A stretch of 64,000 nt of DNA from an uncultured Alphaproteobacteria bacterium (GTDB taxonomy: Bacteria > Pseudomonadota > Alphaproteobacteria > RF32 > CAG-239): assembly GCA_944393215.1 (NCBI GenBank), contig CALXZL010000004.1, positions 62,001 through 126,000 on the forward strand, given 5' to 3'. Below, piece by piece: positions 42,021 to 54,903 of this stretch. A program made the translations under genes and the position numbers. Numbering within the stretch: the stretch's first letter is position 1; every line of letters begins with the position of its first letter. The notes under the pieces were generated by a model. It ran no database searches. It was not told the DNA's origin and worked only from the letters and a program-made list of their open reading frames with translations.

Positions 42021-42575
42021 ATGGAAGAAAAAAAATTAATCCATTATGAAGGCAAGATTTTTTTGCTTGACGGTGAGAAATTAATTGAAGCAGAAACTCA
42101 ACAAGAAGAACAATCATTGCGTTACAAATACGTACGCAATTACAGTAATGACGAAATCTGCTATGTCATAATCGGCAACCGCTTCTTTGAATGGAACAAA
42201 CCCAACAAAGCAGCACGAGAGTTAACGGTCGCAACCCTGTGCCAAAACTCCAGGTTTACCTATTATTACACAAAAGGAGATACCAATATTGTATTTACCG
42301 TAAAAAAAGACGGCACAACTTTCGTTTTGGGAACCTGCTTTATTCCGATTTGCGATAATCTCTACAAAATTGGGAGATATGCTTATCAAATTGTTGACGG
42401 AGAAGTTGAAAAATTATGCGAGTGCGGAGATTTTGACACCGTAGGAATCAGGGTTGAAATAAGCGCGGAAGAAGAAGGAGTGAGCGAAATGCTGTCCTTT
42501 GAAAAAAGAGGAAATCGCTGGAAGAAAGTCAACCACTGGAGACCGGGGAACATCATTCCGCAAAAAAATGTATAA
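42021..42575 (+). CDS. Hypothetical protein, 184 residues
   Basis: This is a soluble protein without a signal peptide or membrane helix. It is predominantly beta, with a repeated pattern of short strands (LIHYEGKIFLLDGEKLIEAE; YAYQIVDGEVEKLCECGDF) and an acidic C-terminal third. Five cysteines are scattered without a metal-binding spacing. I recognise no family. It starts 145 bp after trhP, beyond that gene's terminator, and its stop overlaps the start of the next gene, so the two look co-translated. Confidence 0.65.
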   Translation: MEEKKLIHYEGKIFLLDGEKLIEAETQQEEQSLRYKYVRNYSNDEICYVIIGNRFFEWNKPNKAARELTVATLCQNSRFTYYYTKGDTNIVFTVKKDGTTFVLGTCFIPICDNLYKIGRYAYQIVDGEVEKLCECGDFDTVGIRVEISAEEEGVSEMLSFEKRGNRWKKVNHWRPGNIIPQKNV

Positions 42576-43146
42576 CCTTAATTCTCGTAATATTATGGAA
42601 TATCCTATAATTCGCAGCATAATGAAAATGACAGCCGGATCTATCTTTTTTCCGGTAGAAGTCAAAAAAATCTTTGCTGACCAAGAAGATCATGCAACAG
42701 CAGGAATTTGGTTCAAACTTTTAGAAAATGAGTTTTTGTGCCAATATATTTTGTGTCCGGAAATGATACCCAAAGCATTAAGCTCAAGTATAGATGCTCT
42801 GACAAAGCATGAAGAAATAAAAGAACAGATAGATAATACGGCATATGCCTATCTCATATATGGTCTGAAAAAATATGCCCACGTCTCTGCTCTTAGAAAA
42901 TTTTTTCAGCTGGAATTGGAAAAACGGACAAACAAAAATTTTAACAAAACTCAAAGCCAAAAGATTCACGATCATGTGGTCCAATGGTTAGAAAGAACTT
43001 TGGAAAAAGAATTCATGATAGAACATCAGGATGAAATATCAGATTTGTTCAAAATCATTATTTTCACCCGAAGTGATATCATGCAAGATCCAGACTTCTA
43101 CAACATGTTCTTCGAAAAGAGAGCGGACATTGTAGCATTTCTATAA
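42568..43146 (+). CDS. Hypothetical protein, 192 residues
   Basis: This is a largely helical, soluble protein. The ATG at 42568 overlaps the stop of the preceding gene (ATGTATAA) and is preferred; ATG 42595 and an upstream TTG at 42499 are alternatives, none with a strong ribosome-binding site, which fits translational coupling. Hydrophobic and charged residues alternate in helices (AYLIYGLKKYAHVSALRKFF; IHDHVVQWLERTLEKEFMIE). No family is recognised. With the 42021 gene it forms a two-gene unit ending at a terminator shared with convergent acyP. Confidence 0.6.
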   Translation: MYNLNSRNIMEYPIIRSIMKMTAGSIFFPVEVKKIFADQEDHATAGIWFKLLENEFLCQYILCPEMIPKALSSSIDALTKHEEIKEQIDNTAYAYLIYGLKKYAHVSALRKFFQLELEKRTNKNFNKTQSQKIHDHVVQWLERTLEKEFMIEHQDEISDLFKIIIFTRSDIMQDPDFYNMFFEKRADIVAFL

Positions 43147-49226: not shown

Positions 49227-51536
49227 TTATTTTCGAAATGGATTAGCATTTTCTTTAACATCAGAAAAATCAAATGCATCTTCAGATAGCCACCAATCAT
49301 TATCCTCATTTTCGGAGAGCATTTTTTGGTTTTGCCAGCGTGTTGAAATGTCATCTGCCAAAACGCTTTCCTTATCGGCAACCTGTTCAATAGTTTCAAC
49401 GGCAGCTTCATATCTATTTTCCAAATAAATATCAATATCTTCCAAATTTTCCAATTTGCAACCCGAAGAACGTAAAACCTCAAGCAAATCAGGCGTATCC
49501 ATATCCTGTATATTACGCAAATGGAGCAAATCATTATCGGCAAAATAAGCGGCATCAAAAGTTGCTTTCCGTTTTAGACCGTCGAAAGCCAAAAAGAACG
49601 CCGAACGAATTTTAAAAGGCATTTTATAAACATTCGGCAAAAACAAAATTTCATCTCCATGAACCCAAGACAAGTTTTTAGCCGCCAAAAGACGATTCGC
49701 AACCTTACGATAATAAGCAGAATCTTTAATCTGCGGAACAAGAGAACTATCCTTCTGCACAGAAGCCACAATTCCGCCCGTAGCCATTTTTTGCAACTCT
49801 GCGGCGGCATTGGAAATATTTTCTGATAATAAAATTTTATATTGAGTCTTATTAATGATGTTTTCTAAAGTAGTCTGAGAATATTTCAACTGTAAATTAG
49901 CCAAAGAATTAGCGGTCAACACCAGACCGATATTTCGAGCATCCGCCTCATGCATAGCTCGAGACAAAGACTTATATTCGGGTTGCTGTTCTGCATTATC
50001 AAAAATAAACTGCAACGGACGTTCTCCTTTTTTTGAAGAAGAAGCCATATGATAATAAAGCAACATGTCCACAAACAATTTATTGATAAAATTAATATTT
50101 TTATCCCCGGAAATACTATAAACCGTGGTAACCGGATCATCATAAGTTGAGCGCAAATCAGCAATAGAAAAATCACTGGTAGAAGTACGTTCTCGCACGG
50201 AAGAATTGCGAAAAAGACTCAACGGATTAAACAGCATCGGAAAAATAACGCTTCTCTGTTTTTGCGAAAGATAAAACAGCTGTTGCAAAATCTCGGTAAC
50301 CGTATTGTCATAACCAAAAAATTCAGCCTCTTGCGAACAATATTCCAGCACAATTTTCCAAACATCTACCACTTCTTTTTCTTGAGCTTTAACCAACAAA
50401 AAACATTGTAACAACCAATCTGCAAACATGGAAAGATTAAGCTCCTTACCTTGCCAAGCCTGAGGCACCCCTTCCCAACTTCCGATAGGCAAATAAGTAT
50501 CCTTAGATAAAGTATTTTTTTCTAAAGCTTCAATAGCAGGAGCGGCATAATCTTTATTCATGATAACATAATAGCTGAGCAACAATCGTTTATCTTCTTT
50601 GGACAAACGATCCTTATCCAACAAAACGCCCAAAAAATAATCATTAGCGGCAGCATGTTCAATTTTGGCAACAAAAAAGCTCAATAAACCAAAAAGTGCA
50701 CGTCCAGCCAACTGCGGCCAATAGTCATCACTCAAAGTTTCGGCTTTATCATTATAAAAAATAAAATATTTTGCCAATCCCTTCAAATAATCATCTCGCG
50801 CTTTTCCCTTTGGAGGCATTTCTTTATTTGATAACGGATTCCAGCGCGGATAATACTCATTTTTCAGCGGAGCATCACATAGGCTCCAATTAAAATAGAA
50901 TACCGGTCCCAAAGAAGCCCGATACCCACTGGTATATTCAGCCAGCTCATTTTGCGAACTGACAGCCACAATACAACTGTTATCCGCTTTTAAAATGGTC
51001 GGAATACAGACACAAGAAGTTTTACCCCCGCTGTCATTACCCAAAGCGAGCAAAGATTTATTATCGGGCATTTGCAAAAGCATATCATCCGACACACCCA
51101 AAACACAATATTTTCCGTTAAGAAAATCTTTGTTAATCAGCTTTTGCGGATTGGAAAAATCTATTGTTTCAATCTGACTTTTAAATTTTTTATAAACGGC
51201 TCTTCCCTTCCAAATTATCAAAGACAAAAGGAAAAGAGGAAGAATCATCGGAACAAAATGAGCCCCTGACAATTTATTTTGCAACCACAAAGTCTTTAAG
51301 CTTTTTGCCCAATCCCAATAAACCTCACCCAAATAGAAGGGATCAAAAAATATTTTTCCGGCAAAAGAAAATGCATCATGAAGAATTTTTAAGCTAAAAC
51401 CTTTTTGAGACAAGCGGAGAAAAGCAATTAAAACAGCTGCCAACAGAAAGATTCCGATAACGCCTAAAAATATCACCAAAAATTTCTTTAACCAAATTTT
51501 TGGTGATATTTGTGCAATATAAGTTTTAATATCCAA
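49227..51536 (-). CDS. VirD4/TraG-like type IV secretion coupling ATPase, divergent orphan
   Basis: The 769-residue protein has two N-terminal membrane helices (~17-41, 94-109) followed by a VirD4/TraG-type ATPase. Walker A is GNDSGGKT (166-173) leading to the typical IPTIL; then NELAEYTSGYRASLGPVFYFNW, RWNPLS (~231-236) and DDYWPQLAGRALFGLLSFFV match coupling-protein blocks. Walker B is LQFIFDNAEQQ with Asp513 but Asn514 where the catalytic Glu is expected. The C-terminal ~170 residues are acidic and specific. No virB, relaxase or pilus genes are nearby; it follows the pentapeptide-repeat gene by 13 bp. Pumping or tethering of a protein substrate is inference. Confidence 0.8.
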   Translation of the reverse strand: MDIKTYIAQISPKIWLKKFLVIFLGVIGIFLLAAVLIAFLRLSQKGFSLKILHDAFSFAGKIFFDPFYLGEVYWDWAKSLKTLWLQNKLSGAHFVPMILPLFLLSLIIWKGRAVYKKFKSQIETIDFSNPQKLINKDFLNGKYCVLGVSDDMLLQMPDNKSLLALGNDSGGKTSCVCIPTILKADNSCIVAVSSQNELAEYTSGYRASLGPVFYFNWSLCDAPLKNEYYPRWNPLSNKEMPPKGKARDDYLKGLAKYFIFYNDKAETLSDDYWPQLAGRALFGLLSFFVAKIEHAAANDYFLGVLLDKDRLSKEDKRLLLSYYVIMNKDYAAPAIEALEKNTLSKDTYLPIGSWEGVPQAWQGKELNLSMFADWLLQCFLLVKAQEKEVVDVWKIVLEYCSQEAEFFGYDNTVTEILQQLFYLSQKQRSVIFPMLFNPLSLFRNSSVRERTSTSDFSIADLRSTYDDPVTTVYSISGDKNINFINKLFVDMLLYYHMASSSKKGERPLQFIFDNAEQQPEYKSLSRAMHEADARNIGLVLTANSLANLQLKYSQTTLENIINKTQYKILLSENISNAAAELQKMATGGIVASVQKDSSLVPQIKDSAYYRKVANRLLAAKNLSWVHGDEILFLPNVYKMPFKIRSAFFLAFDGLKRKATFDAAYFADNDLLHLRNIQDMDTPDLLEVLRSSGCKLENLEDIDIYLENRYEAAVETIEQVADKESVLADDISTRWQNQKMLSENEDNDWWLSEDAFDFSDVKENANPFRK

Positions 51537-51549
51537 GCGTCAAACTCCC

Positions 51550-52908
51550 TTAATCACGACCTCTGTCTCGATTGATAAAACGCTCAATTTTCACGTTATC
51601 TTTAGATTTTTCTTTTATATGAACATCCTTCTGTCTCTCAGGAGAATTTTCTTTAGAAACTTCTTTTTGAAATTCCTGTTTTTTTGCGGCAAGTTTTTTC
51701 CGTTCCTCTTCCTTATGCTGCATAATTCGCTCTTTCAACTCTTCATTACGAGCCTTATCTTCATCTTTACGCAATTTTTCTTCTTTAATCTGAGCGACAA
51801 TTTCCTCACCTTCCAGAGGAGGATTAGGTTTTCCTGCCGATTTTCGAAATAATTTCATTCCGGATTCGACCAATTTGCCGATATCAAGCCCTTTTTCTTT
51901 AGTAACATCCCAAACGCCGAACTCTTTTCCGTTATCATAAAACAAATCATGCAAATCAATACCGTTATCTTTTTTCTTTTGTGGCTTTTTAGGAGCCAAA
52001 AGGCGAGCCAACTCCTGAGCTGAAGGCGGATGACCGAGCGCTTCGGCAATCTGAGCGGGAGAAATAATACACTCACTTAAATCAAGCTCCCACAGGTTAA
52101 CCCCACGCAAAGAACATCCGGTAAAATCCACGCCGCGCAAACTCACTTTGGTCAAATCGATTTTAGATAAATCGAGCAAAGTCAGGTTAAGTTTGGTCAA
52201 ATTGAGCTTATGCGGATAATAGACTGCCATATATTCGACCAAAGCCTGCAACTCTTCAATACCGAGCTCATCAATTTCCACACCGAGCAGAATAGCTTCT
52301 TCCAAATTAGCTTCGGTTAAGACAACGCCGTTTAATTTTGCACCGGTAAAATTAGCCCGCAAAAGATTTGCTCCGGAAAGGACGGCTCCGGTCAAATCGG
52401 CATGGGACAAATTAACATCCGTCATATTTGCTCCGGAAAAATCTGCCCCGGACAAAATGGCATGCGAGAAATCAGAACCGGTCAAATCCGCTGCCGAAAA
52501 ATTAGCATTTGTTAAATCTGCCTTGGCAAAATTCTGTTCAGCCAAAACTTGTCCGGTAAATTCTTTGCCTTTGTTTTGGGCAAGTGTTTCTGGAATTTTA
52601 AACATTTTATTTTCCACGGCAATCTCTGCCATAGAAATTTGAGAAGGACGCAAACCTTCACTTTTTTTAGGAGCGGGAGAAACTGTTTTCTTTTCTTTTA
52701 TTTCAGGTTTGGGAGAAGATTTTGCGGCATCCTCCTCAAGAGGAAATTCATCCTGATTGGAAACGGCTCGCCAAGAATAAGTCATTGAGGTATCACCAAC
52801 CTTTTTAGGCGGATAAGCATGCTTTGAAGAAGAAAAATCAAAGACATTGTCCTCACTTTTCTTATCCTTTCGCGGTGGTATTGAAAACTTATTATTAAAA
52901 TCGGACAT
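51550..52908 (-). CDS. Pentapeptide-repeat protein with charged C-terminal coiled coil
   Basis: This is a 452-residue cytoplasmic protein with no signal or membrane segment. Residues ~1-105 are disordered and charged (FSIPPRKDKKSEDN; KPEIKEKKTVSPAPKK). Residues ~120-205 are consecutive A(D/N)(L/F)xx pentapeptides (ADLTNANFSAADLTGSDF...ANLLRANFTGAKL), forming a right-handed beta-helix; a short helical break (~215-240) is followed by more repeats to ~285. Residues ~340-452 are a Lys/Glu/Arg-rich coiled coil. ATG 52908 is preferred over an upstream TTG. It is the middle gene between a SPOR lipoprotein and a VirD4-like ATPase; an adaptor role is speculation. Confidence 0.82.
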   Translation of the reverse strand: MSDFNNKFSIPPRKDKKSEDNVFDFSSSKHAYPPKKVGDTSMTYSWRAVSNQDEFPLEEDAAKSSPKPEIKEKKTVSPAPKKSEGLRPSQISMAEIAVENKMFKIPETLAQNKGKEFTGQVLAEQNFAKADLTNANFSAADLTGSDFSHAILSGADFSGANMTDVNLSHADLTGAVLSGANLLRANFTGAKLNGVVLTEANLEEAILLGVEIDELGIEELQALVEYMAVYYPHKLNLTKLNLTLLDLSKIDLTKVSLRGVDFTGCSLRGVNLWELDLSECIISPAQIAEALGHPPSAQELARLLAPKKPQKKKDNGIDLHDLFYDNGKEFGVWDVTKEKGLDIGKLVESGMKLFRKSAGKPNPPLEGEEIVAQIKEEKLRKDEDKARNEELKERIMQHKEEERKKLAAKKQEFQKEVSKENSPERQKDVHIKEKSKDNVKIERFINRDRGRD

Positions 52909-52986
52909 ATTCAAAACACTTTCCCAACAAGCAGTCAATTTAGAATATAATAAAATATTTTCTGAATATTGACAACCATTTTAAGC

Positions 52987-54777
52987 TTATTTTTGTCTTA
53001 AAATACATTCAACTTTATCTGCCCGCAATTTATTACAAATATTTTGCCACCCGCCGTTTTTAGACTTAACAATCAAGCGATACATCATTTTACCATTCTG
53101 CATAGAACTTTCGATTTTAGGTTTAACGTTTGAAAATTCTGGATAAATTTCTTTAAGCATTTGCCACTCGATATCCGCATTTTCCTTTTGTCGATAAGCC
53201 CCGAGCTGCATAACCGGCATTTTGTCATAAACCGGATCTTCGTAAGCATCAAAATTTCCGGCAGGTTTTAGGGGTAAAGTAATGGCTTGAGGCTCTTTTT
53301 TTCCGCCCTGATCAATTAAAATTTCCAGCCAATTATCTTGTTTTGCCCACGTATTTCCGGTGTTTTTTGCTGAACTGATACGATTATCTGCCTTTGCCAG
53401 CATATCAATCATATCCTGATTAAACGCTTTTTTAAGAGCGACCACAATTTGTGCAATTTTTTCCTTTAACAATTCTTCTGACAAAGGAGACAATCCGGCA
53501 TGAAAATAAAGGGCTCTTAAAGCCGCAGCCCGGTCAGAAGAAATCTGAGTTTGTTTCCACTCAGATTCATCTAAGAGCAATCTCTGATTAATTAAATCGG
53601 ACTTTTCTGCATCAGACAAATTACGTTTGCGCTCCGTTGTCCGAATTTCAGAACGTAATTGAGCTGTTTTTGTCGATACCTCCGCAAACTCGACATCAAA
53701 CGCTTTAACCATGGCATAATCGAGCTCAATCTGAACCATAATAGCCATACCCAATTTATCAAAAGCATTTCGCAAAGCAATTTTTTTCAATTCCAAATCT
53801 TGTTCTGACAAATAAGCATGAACATCATTGATAAGGGATTGAGCCACATTTTCAGCTTTTTGGCTTAAATTTTTTTGAAAAAGATCCGTATTTGCATCAA
53901 CACCGTTAATGTCCAAACGCTTGGTTTCAGAATACGAATTTTCAAGATTTTTTTGAGCATAACGAGGGTTGAAACCAAAAATTTCTTTACGAGCCAAATC
54001 AAATTCGGTTCGATAATCGAGTGCCGTATTTTGAAAAGTTGTAAGCTTATTACGTTGATCAAAATCTTGCAGTTCGTAGAAATTTTTGCCCTGTAAGTGC
54101 AAATCATTATATTCCACCTTCACTAAAGAGGCAAAATCTTTAACAAAGGCATCTAAAAAATCTTTGAACTGTTGCATTTTATTAATAGAAACTTCCAACG
54201 ATTTTTTATATTCCAAATCTACCGGAGAAAGGCTGCCGTTTTTCTCTAATTTATTATCCAAATATTTGACGGATTTTTGTTGAGAGGCAATTCTACGGTC
54301 CAATTCTTTAATTTTTCGCAACGCAAACAAAGTATCCTGATGATTTTTAATAGCAACCAAAGCTAACTGCTGTGCTGTTTTATTATAGATATAATTTTTT
54401 ACAAATCTATCATTAGCGGTCAGATTCACGGTTGCATAAACAATGGCAAAATCCAAATTTCTGGAAGCCTCATAAAAAGGCTGTTCACCGTCATTTTTAA
54501 CATTAGAAATCGAGGCAAAAATTTGAGCGGCGTTTTTCCCACGGGTATCAATAACCGCTTTTTGATACAAATTTCTGTTTGCGGCAACCACATTATATTT
54601 TGCGGTACGTGCCATAGATTCATATACATTCAACCTTCCCTTCACCGCTTCGATATCGGTCACGCCGGATTCCTCAACCGGATTCTGAGTTTTTTCGACA
54701 GGGTTTGATGTAGAGCAAGACGTCAGGCAACCCAGCAAAAACATTAGGAAAAAAGAAGGATACAACATGTTTTTCAT
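52987..54777 (-). CDS. Outer-membrane lipoprotein with TolC-like helical region and SPOR domain
   Basis: The 596-residue protein from the ATG at 54777 has a lipoprotein signal peptide with lipobox LTSC. The long middle (~90-460) is almost all helix and resembles the helical portion of TolC-family proteins (SRNLDFAIVYATVNLTANDRF, TAQQLALVAIKNHQDTL, then DLEYKKSLEVSINKMQQF). I do not see convincing beta-barrel strands. The last ~75 residues are a SPOR domain (VMQLGAYRQKENADIEWQMLK ... YRLIVKSKNGGWQNICNKLRADKVECIL), which binds denuded peptidoglycan, usually at division sites. First gene of the three-gene unit with the pentapeptide and VirD4-like genes. The TolC resemblance is moderate; lipobox and SPOR are firm. 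Confidence 0.75.
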   Translation of the reverse strand: MKNMLYPSFFLMFLLGCLTSCSTSNPVEKTQNPVEESGVTDIEAVKGRLNVYESMARTAKYNVVAANRNLYQKAVIDTRGKNAAQIFASISNVKNDGEQPFYEASRNLDFAIVYATVNLTANDRFVKNYIYNKTAQQLALVAIKNHQDTLFALRKIKELDRRIASQQKSVKYLDNKLEKNGSLSPVDLEYKKSLEVSINKMQQFKDFLDAFVKDFASLVKVEYNDLHLQGKNFYELQDFDQRNKLTTFQNTALDYRTEFDLARKEIFGFNPRYAQKNLENSYSETKRLDINGVDANTDLFQKNLSQKAENVAQSLINDVHAYLSEQDLELKKIALRNAFDKLGMAIMVQIELDYAMVKAFDVEFAEVSTKTAQLRSEIRTTERKRNLSDAEKSDLINQRLLLDESEWKQTQISSDRAAALRALYFHAGLSPLSEELLKEKIAQIVVALKKAFNQDMIDMLAKADNRISSAKNTGNTWAKQDNWLEILIDQGGKKEPQAITLPLKPAGNFDAYEDPVYDKMPVMQLGAYRQKENADIEWQMLKEIYPEFSNVKPKIESSMQNGKMMYRLIVKSKNGGWQNICNKLRADKVECILRQK

Positions 54778-54903
54778 AGCATATACTTTCCACATAACGA
54801 GTATGTAACAATATGTAACAAGAATTTAAAAGATTTTTATCAAAACTTTTGCTAATAGTAAACTAAATAAATCAGCAAACTTAAATTTAAGGAATAAAAA
54901 CTC

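Follow-up and report, generated by a model that had tools for sequence, protein, structure and literature searches.

The window analysed here is a stretch of 64,000 nucleotides (positions 62001-126000 of contig C4, in a 1.72 Mb genome of 27 contigs labelled G000). Three neighbouring genes in it encode a VirD4-like ATPase, a pentapeptide-repeat protein and a lipoprotein with a SPOR domain, which we call T4CP2, PENTA and SPORL. We found that T4CP2 is an old paralogue of T4CP1, the canonical VirD4 of the type IV secretion system (T4SS) resident in the same genome. This second VirD4 copy is conserved, has been disarmed repeatedly, and is paired across lineages with a pentapeptide-repeat protein. 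Our favoured, though tentative, reading is that the T4CP2 unit serves the resident T4SS as a receptor or regulatory arm and not as a motor. Coupling ATPases determine what a T4SS exports. If this reading is true, a disarmed second copy with a pentapeptide partner would separate substrate docking from ATP-driven pushing in a testable way, and would offer a way into the T4SS of these gut Alphaproteobacteria, a group that has been little studied. The T4CP2-bearing family belongs to this group and corresponds to CAG-239 of the GTDB order RF32; its named members include Azospirillum sp. CAG:239 (L122) and many alphaproteobacterial metagenome-assembled genomes.

T4CP2 matched the T4SS-DNA_transf profile (PF02534) with 50.5 bits, above the curated cut-off of 20.1 bits; T4CP1, on contig C8, matched the same profile with 195 bits. 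Two hydrophobic stretches that we noticed by eye in T4CP2 could be the two N-terminal membrane helices of a VirD4 protein. When solved structures were searched with a T4CP2 profile, the best match was to Cagbeta (8dol; E 1.3e-4). In trees of 63 and 108 rows, T4CP1 and T4CP2 formed separate clades, each of which held lineages from outside the order; support for the T4CP2 clade, at 90 and 92, did not reach the starred level, and the branches to the outgroup were long. The rows included 48 T4CP2 sequences from the family, 26 from outside it (23 distinct, three sequences having been entered twice) and 32 T4CP1 sequences (31 distinct). One sequence interrupted by a stop (L252) and two second copies (L257 and L259) were left out.

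The family copies of T4CP2 have kept Walker A and lost three other catalytic positions. The Walker A Lys was present in all 48 family rows and in all 26 T4CP2 rows from outside the family; Ser replaced the Gly preceding it in two of the family rows. The catalytic Glu of Walker B was present in none of the 48 family rows (Asp in 42, Asn in 5, Gly in 1), compared to all 32 T4CP1 rows, and T4CP2 of the window reads Asp-Asn where VirD4/TraG proteins have Asp-Glu. Likewise, Arg at position +19 (the arginine finger) was found in 1 of 48 family rows and Gln at position +30 in none, versus 32 of 32 T4CP1 rows for each. We take these two positions, by their spacing, to be those of Arg375 and Gln386 of TrwB. 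In the L172-like clade the +19 column was shifted by one and the counts are unreliable, which does not affect the family counts. The available passages of a study of Cagbeta (PMC9886983) name Arg375 as the arginine finger of TrwB and report that changing the Walker B Glu of Cagbeta abolished ATPase activity.

Outside the family, Glu was kept in 17 T4CP2 rows and lost in nine, and eight of these nine had kept the Arg and eight the Gln. Parsimony on the 108-row tree required at least five changes in the state of the Glu, with none of the T4CP1 rows lacking it.

In nine genomes with both copies, the Walker B half was the most alike part of T4CP1 (mean identity 0.90). In the same nine genomes, the mean identity of T4CP2 was 0.50 in the Walker A half, 0.45 in the all-alpha domain (AAD) and 0.39 in the Walker B half. 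In close pairs, the ratio of nonsynonymous to synonymous change (dN/dS) was 0.04-0.11 for T4CP2, 0.03-0.11 for PENTA and 0.03-0.16 for SPORL, based on eight pairs (seven for SPORL) that were not all independent (L049 and L037 were reused) and in several of which dS was near saturation. These ratios argue against T4CP2 being a pseudogene or decaying copy, and because of them we regard T4CP2 as being under selection without its motor residues. Since the catalytic Glu, the arginine-finger residue and the motif Gln are gone in at least 47 of 48 family rows, T4CP2 is unlikely to power export, and we predict that it no longer hydrolyses ATP. Strong selection in the absence of these residues suggests a part in docking or control, rather than that of a motor.

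The initial annotation had called T4CP2 an orphan ATPase, noted that neither a VirB channel nor a relaxase was present, and advised a survey of related genomes for a scattered T4SS. No VirB gene was seen at the locus, but a cluster of six VirB-type components (VirB2, VirB4, VirB8, a VirB9-like protein, VirB10 and VirB11) lies on contig C6. This cluster and T4CP1 on C8 are both encoded apart from T4CP2, which is thus no orphan. VirB3, VirB6 and VirB7 were not recognised in the genome by the profiles run. A search of the genome for relaxases, confined to family PF03432, found none. The VirB11 model scored 144 bits compared to 20.0 bits for DotB, which marks the C6 system as VirB-type; the VirB4, VirB9 and VirB10 models were likewise preferred. 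A Dot/Icm reading had been considered from a giant VirB10 that looked like DotG and from PENTA, whose repeat region weakly matches DotG (26 bits; cut-off 750) and which had no other Dot match, and was rejected on these scores.

The VirB9-like protein (L064:16936-18663 on C6) matched CagX with 51 bits and ended in a SPOR match of 22.3 bits (cut-off 21), so that the outer ring of the T4SS may itself bind stripped glycan. Two very long adjoining ORFs (open reading frames; L064:18660 to L065:7773 on C6) contain VGxVxPDGxVVDxxGNxIG-type repeats, and the second, of 1690 aa, ends in the VirB10 domain. Beside the T4SS, a 1024-aa ORF (L065:11508-14582) contains many copies of an acidic repeat of the DDASDESSDETPQQN type. 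Upstream of T4CP1 on C8 (L035:7048-8925) are two adjoining membrane-type proteins of 438 and 162 aa that look alike by eye and had no Pfam match above cut-off; it is possible that they are accessory coupling subunits.

The three genes of the window are co-oriented (Table 1), with gaps of 78 bp between SPORL and PENTA and 13 bp between PENTA and T4CP2 when counted from the likely starts (ATG at 52908 and TTG at 51536), and a check of the ORFs bore out the coordinates and spacing first given for them. A rarA-like gene (47786) lies on one side and a Gfo/Idh dehydrogenase gene (54904) on the other. We compared this arrangement in the best 80 of 102 loci collected, of which 59 had a T4CP2 of the family type. 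PENTA was directly upstream of T4CP2 on the same strand in 55 of the 59 (median gap 4 bp), and rarA directly followed T4CP2 in 52. An automatic caller found all three genes in order in 50 of the 59 loci. In two of the nine exceptions the caller was in error, choosing an antisense ORF over SPORL (L109) or an 82-aa ORF in between (L117), and the true count is probably 52. In the others SPORL was on another contig (G028 and G029) or not found (G094), the locus was rearranged (two), or a contig ended (two). These counts support a conserved unit made up of a VirD4 homologue, a pentapeptide protein and a SPOR lipoprotein of OEP descent.

The unit is not indivisible. We compiled presence of the three genes by hand from genome-wide match lists, and presence of T4CP2 refers throughout to the matches listed. 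Among 154 genomes of the order, at least 68 had T4CP2 and 73 had SPORL; 88 had matched in the SPORL search, and 15 weak partial matches were left out. Two genomes with two VirD4-type matches each (G118 and G148) may hold missed fragments of T4CP2. PENTA homologues were present in 137 of the 154 at a threshold of 1e-50, as a single match each. When the three genes were compared, G153 was counted as having PENTA, although its diverged copy scores below that threshold. No genome had SPORL without PENTA, only G092 (59% complete) and G094 had T4CP2 without SPORL, seven had SPORL and PENTA without T4CP2, and 64 had PENTA alone. Presence is nested, with PENTA as the core and T4CP2 as the most dispensable member, which rules out a fixed three-gene system, whose presence would be all-or-none. 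In five genomes of genus g6 (G033, G040, G052, G060 and G063; 93-100% complete) the region appeared to have been lost whole: rarA was absent at E 1e-100, PENTA at 1e-50, and T4CP2 from the matches listed.

PENTA and T4CP2 were also neighbours in 15 further loci outside the family. When 385 genomes of the class were sampled, T4CP2-type copies turned up in 11 from outside the order, and the gene upstream matched PF00805 in all 10 tested (L246-L256 except L247). Each of these 11 genomes also carried a copy nearer to T4CP1 (56-64% identity, versus at most 40% to two T4CP2 sequences) with Asp-Glu intact. Within the order, 66 of the 68 T4CP2-bearing genomes had at least two VirD4-type matches, and the other two were 88% and 59% complete. 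T4CP2 goes with T4CP1, because these 66 of 68 and all 11 of the genomes outside the order carry a second VirD4-type copy.

PENTA matched the Pentapeptide profile (PF00805) with 120.7 bits, and both the match and the alignment have the tandem A(D/N)LXX repeat. Neither a signal peptide nor a membrane segment was noticed by eye. In 12 loci from genomes without T4CP2 and SPORL, PENTA adjoined rarA in 10, and in five of those 10 its other neighbour was a gene for an AmpG-like transporter (Table 1); we ran the NCBIfam AmpG model on two of the AmpG-like genes. In genus g3, PENTA was relocated, and in the seven loci read it adjoined an AmpG-like gene and no T4SS genes, so that a link of PENTA to T4SS genes there was rejected. 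In some genera a diverse family of proteins of 409-445 aa with a YHExxH-type motif, zinc-peptidase-like by eye, is encoded between T4CP2 or PENTA and rarA; one member, searched against Pfam and NCBIfam, had no match.

The initial annotation had described SPORL as a lipoprotein with TolC-like helices and a SPOR domain. SPORL matched SPOR (PF05036) with 20.2 bits, slightly below the 21-bit cut-off, and the lipobox Cys21 and the SPOR residues Cys581 and Cys591 were invariant in all 36 aligned relatives. A simple pattern search of 58 uncurated homologues gave a lipobox-like site in 47. With Ser at +2 of the lipobox, sorting to the outer membrane is expected. The TolC likeness was not seen in SPORL itself: it did not match the Pfam OEP family (PF02321) at E up to 10, and a search of the PDB with a SPORL profile found no TolC likeness. 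It came through the counterpart in G153, a genome of a sister family. That protein is a clear OEP protein (PF02321, 87.5 bits) beside a Gfo/Idh gene, with a SPOR-like tail that the SPORL profile detected, and the SPORL family aligned with it over nearly its whole length (hhalign E 9.5e-35). Judged by this alignment, SPORL is of OEP descent. Relative to the G153 protein, SPORL has a 31-residue gap in the first hairpin region, and its regions corresponding to the OEP barrel are shorter or changed in sequence; Chou-Fasman strand propensity, a weak test, differed little there. SPORL is possibly a poreless helical trunk of TolC type.

A second family of OEP-related lipoproteins, with an Ig-like C-terminal domain, occurs in the genome of the window and in relatives (the orthologue in G007, of 622 aa, ends in the Ig domain). 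Its distance from the G153 OEP protein is about that of the nearest SPORL; we therefore tie the G153 protein to SPORL by its SPOR tail and its place beside Gfo/Idh, and not by the OEP part alone. We gave no weight to a match of the SPORL profile to a wider OEP set, because it depended on the G153 row: without that row, the set's profile found none of the proteins of the loci, including G153's own OEP protein.

In the reading that we favour, T4CP2 arose when the VirD4 coupling ATPase of the VirB-type T4SS of these bacteria was duplicated long ago, and in the family of the window it would have turned into a subunit that binds ATP and does not hydrolyse it. Its most likely place would be the inner membrane, where it would act as a receptor or as a regulatory subunit. 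Its AAD and Walker A half, with PENTA bound as a cytoplasmic partner, would hold substrate or select it, or else hold T4CP1, but would carry out no translocation. SPORL would tether the assembly to the outer membrane and, by its SPOR domain, to stripped glycan strands, and the VirB9-like protein could bind the same kind of glycan mark. The three proteins would touch one another and act jointly with the T4SS, T4CP2 serving either as a receptor for substrates or as a brake.

Several observations weigh against this reading. VirB10 (PF03743) was found in 122 of the 154 genomes of the order, including genera without T4CP2; since the T4SS is kept in these genera, T4CP2 is not needed for it. Co-occurrence of T4CP1 and T4CP2 within the order weighs little, because T4CP1 is nearly universal there. 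In 71 genomes PENTA occurred in the absence of T4CP2, and in some genera it adjoined the gene for the muropeptide transporter AmpG; its main job may therefore not concern T4CP2. One genome, G221, has T4CP1 and a diverged second VirD4 (L324:1194 on C109) with an Asp-Asn Walker B. The upstream neighbour of this second copy is a 144-aa gene, and no pentapeptide gene of the size of PENTA was found upstream in the stretch read; the copy is perhaps a further, independently disarmed one. Other NTPases can retain a measure of activity when Asp replaces the Glu, and Asp is the residue in most of the family rows. Finally, the G153 locus carries HlyD and M50-HlyD genes, which point to a TolC-type assembly rather than a T4SS.

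The last point leads to the chief rival, which we consider unlikely: an envelope assembly of the TolC/HlyD type, outside the T4SS and derived from the arrangement in G153, in which T4CP2 replaces the ABC ATPase of a tripartite exporter and the adaptors have been lost in the family. On a single strand, G153 has the order OEP-SPOR, HlyD, HlyD, M50-HlyD, PENTA and T4CP2, and SPORL is related to its OEP protein. However, this rests on one draft genome that is 79% complete. The M50-HlyD protein was found in 1 of the 154 genomes of the order (none in the other 153 at the threshold used), and phmmer searches with the three G153 adaptors found none in the other loci of the 155 compared, including those outside the family with PENTA and T4CP2 (L165-L186). 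In addition, T4CP2 lacks the hydrolysis residues.

Less probable still is that T4CP2 is a working motor, with Asp or Asn acting for Glu together with a cis arginine, and serves a second export route through the VirB channel. The invariant Walker A Lys, the prevalence of Asp and the purifying selection are in its favour, and in the available passages of PMC9886983 Cagbeta is an active ATPase that also lacks a trans arginine finger and is proposed to rely on a cis arginine within Walker A. On the other hand, three separate catalytic positions were lost together in the family, some rows have Asn or Gly instead of Asp, and the Walker B half is the part in which constraint has fallen the most.

We think it improbable that the unit works in peptidoglycan homeostasis, either at the division site or where the wall has been stripped, with T4CP2 as an inert membrane scaffold and no T4SS role. 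A SPOR domain with conserved Cys would fit such a role, as would the AmpG-type gene that adjoins PENTA in several genera lacking T4CP2. Among the 155 loci compared, however, AmpG was present in six, none of which had SPORL or T4CP2, and T4CP2 has kept the AAD-like insertion and the ATP site, which is odd for a plain scaffold. Of similarly low probability, by analogy, is a mixed ring of T4CP1 and T4CP2. T4CP2 would provide non-catalytic subunits that hold ATP, like the alpha subunits of F1-ATPase, and the rod-shaped PENTA would plug or gate the ring as a mimic of nucleic acid. The T4CP2 rows outside the family that lack Glu and mostly keep the arginine-finger residue are as expected of a trans-activating non-catalytic subunit; in the family of the window such a ring would be a brake, because the arginine finger is lost there as well. 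The stripped-down, self-sufficient coupling-ATPase exporter spanning the envelope that was first proposed for the trio, from the predicted placement of the three proteins and to which the conserved gene order could be added, is very improbable, given the missing hydrolysis residues, the VirB-type components elsewhere in the genome and the lack of a recognised channel protein in the unit (SPORL having no Pfam OEP signal and barrel regions that look altered, with a weak propensity test).

T4CP2 resembles VirD4/TraG/TrwB proteins in profile match, place in the tree, Walker A and an aligned AAD-like insertion; it differs in having lost the catalytic Glu, arginine finger and Gln, in being encoded apart from the VirB cluster and in coexisting with a canonical copy. 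According to the available passages of PMC9886983, the AADs of coupling proteins recognise substrate, and Cagbeta of Helicobacter pylori, likewise a VirD4 homologue with a dedicated partner, is controlled by that partner, CagZ. In contrast to T4CP2, Cagbeta is active; CagZ is not PENTA, and those passages describe no second, disarmed VirD4. DotL-DotM-DotN of Dot/Icm, a coupling complex named in PMC12857230, shares the idea of a VirD4 protein with accessory subunits at the inner membrane, but the C6 system is of VirB type. SPORL, homologous over nearly its whole length to the G153 OEP-SPOR protein, differs from TolC/OEP factors in being a lipoprotein with a SPOR tail, without a Pfam OEP signal and with no G153-type HlyD gene at its locus; among the 155 loci, G153-type HlyD and M50-HlyD genes, the adaptors of a tripartite TolC-HlyD exporter, were found only in G153. 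We found neither a VirD4 pseudo-ATPase nor a VirD4-pentapeptide pair in the open-licence literature by title or start of abstract; several of the papers that came up mention two VirD4 proteins.

Table 1. Features of the T4CP2 locus and of related loci. Positions are those of the window unless a locus is named.
Feature	Position	Strand	Basis
T4CP2, VirD4-like second coupling ATPase, 769 aa, TTG start	49227..51536	-	PF02534 50.5 bits; separate clade in two trees; ORF 49227-51536
Walker A GNDSGGKTS, residues 166-174, kept	51015..51041	-	Lys conserved
Region taken as AAD insertion, residues about 236-425	50262..50831	-	boundary placed from position between Walker motifs
Degenerate Walker B IFDNAEQQP, residues 511-519, Asn replacing catalytic Glu	49980..50006	-	motif counts
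T4CP2 C-terminal motif DWWLSEDAF	49272..49298	-	W748, W749 and F755 invariant in 21 aligned sequences
PENTA, pentapeptide-repeat/coiled-coil protein	51550..52908	-	PF00805 120.7 bits; ORF 51550-52938 (462 aa), inner ATG at 52908
PENTA pentapeptide-repeat region with conserved insert ELQALVEYMAVYYPHKLNL	52069..52566	-	Pfam match and alignment
SPORL, OEP-derived lipoprotein with C-terminal SPOR domain	52987..54777	-	alignment; homology to G153 OEP-SPOR protein; ORF 52987-54795 (602 aa), inner ATG at 54777
SPORL lipobox LTSC, Ser at +2	54715..54726	-	Cys21 invariant 36/36
SPORL OEP/TolC-like helical part, limits approximate	53428..54648	-	hhalign to G153 OEP protein
SPORL SPOR domain	52996..53211	-	PF05036 20.2 bits (cut-off 21); Cys581 and Cys591 invariant 36/36
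AmpG-family muropeptide transporter gene adjoining PENTA, genera without T4CP2 and SPORL	L232:5498-6823, L305:7716-8984		
YHExxH-type family members	L041:7528-8799, L047:9097-10434, L188:4203-5477, L191:8261-10731		
Second OEP-related lipoprotein-like protein, 633 aa	L300:8983-10884 (genome of the window, C5)		orthologues in G025, G007, G118

Near the locus, at 42021-43146 of the window, are two small genes that diverge between relatives much faster than their neighbours.

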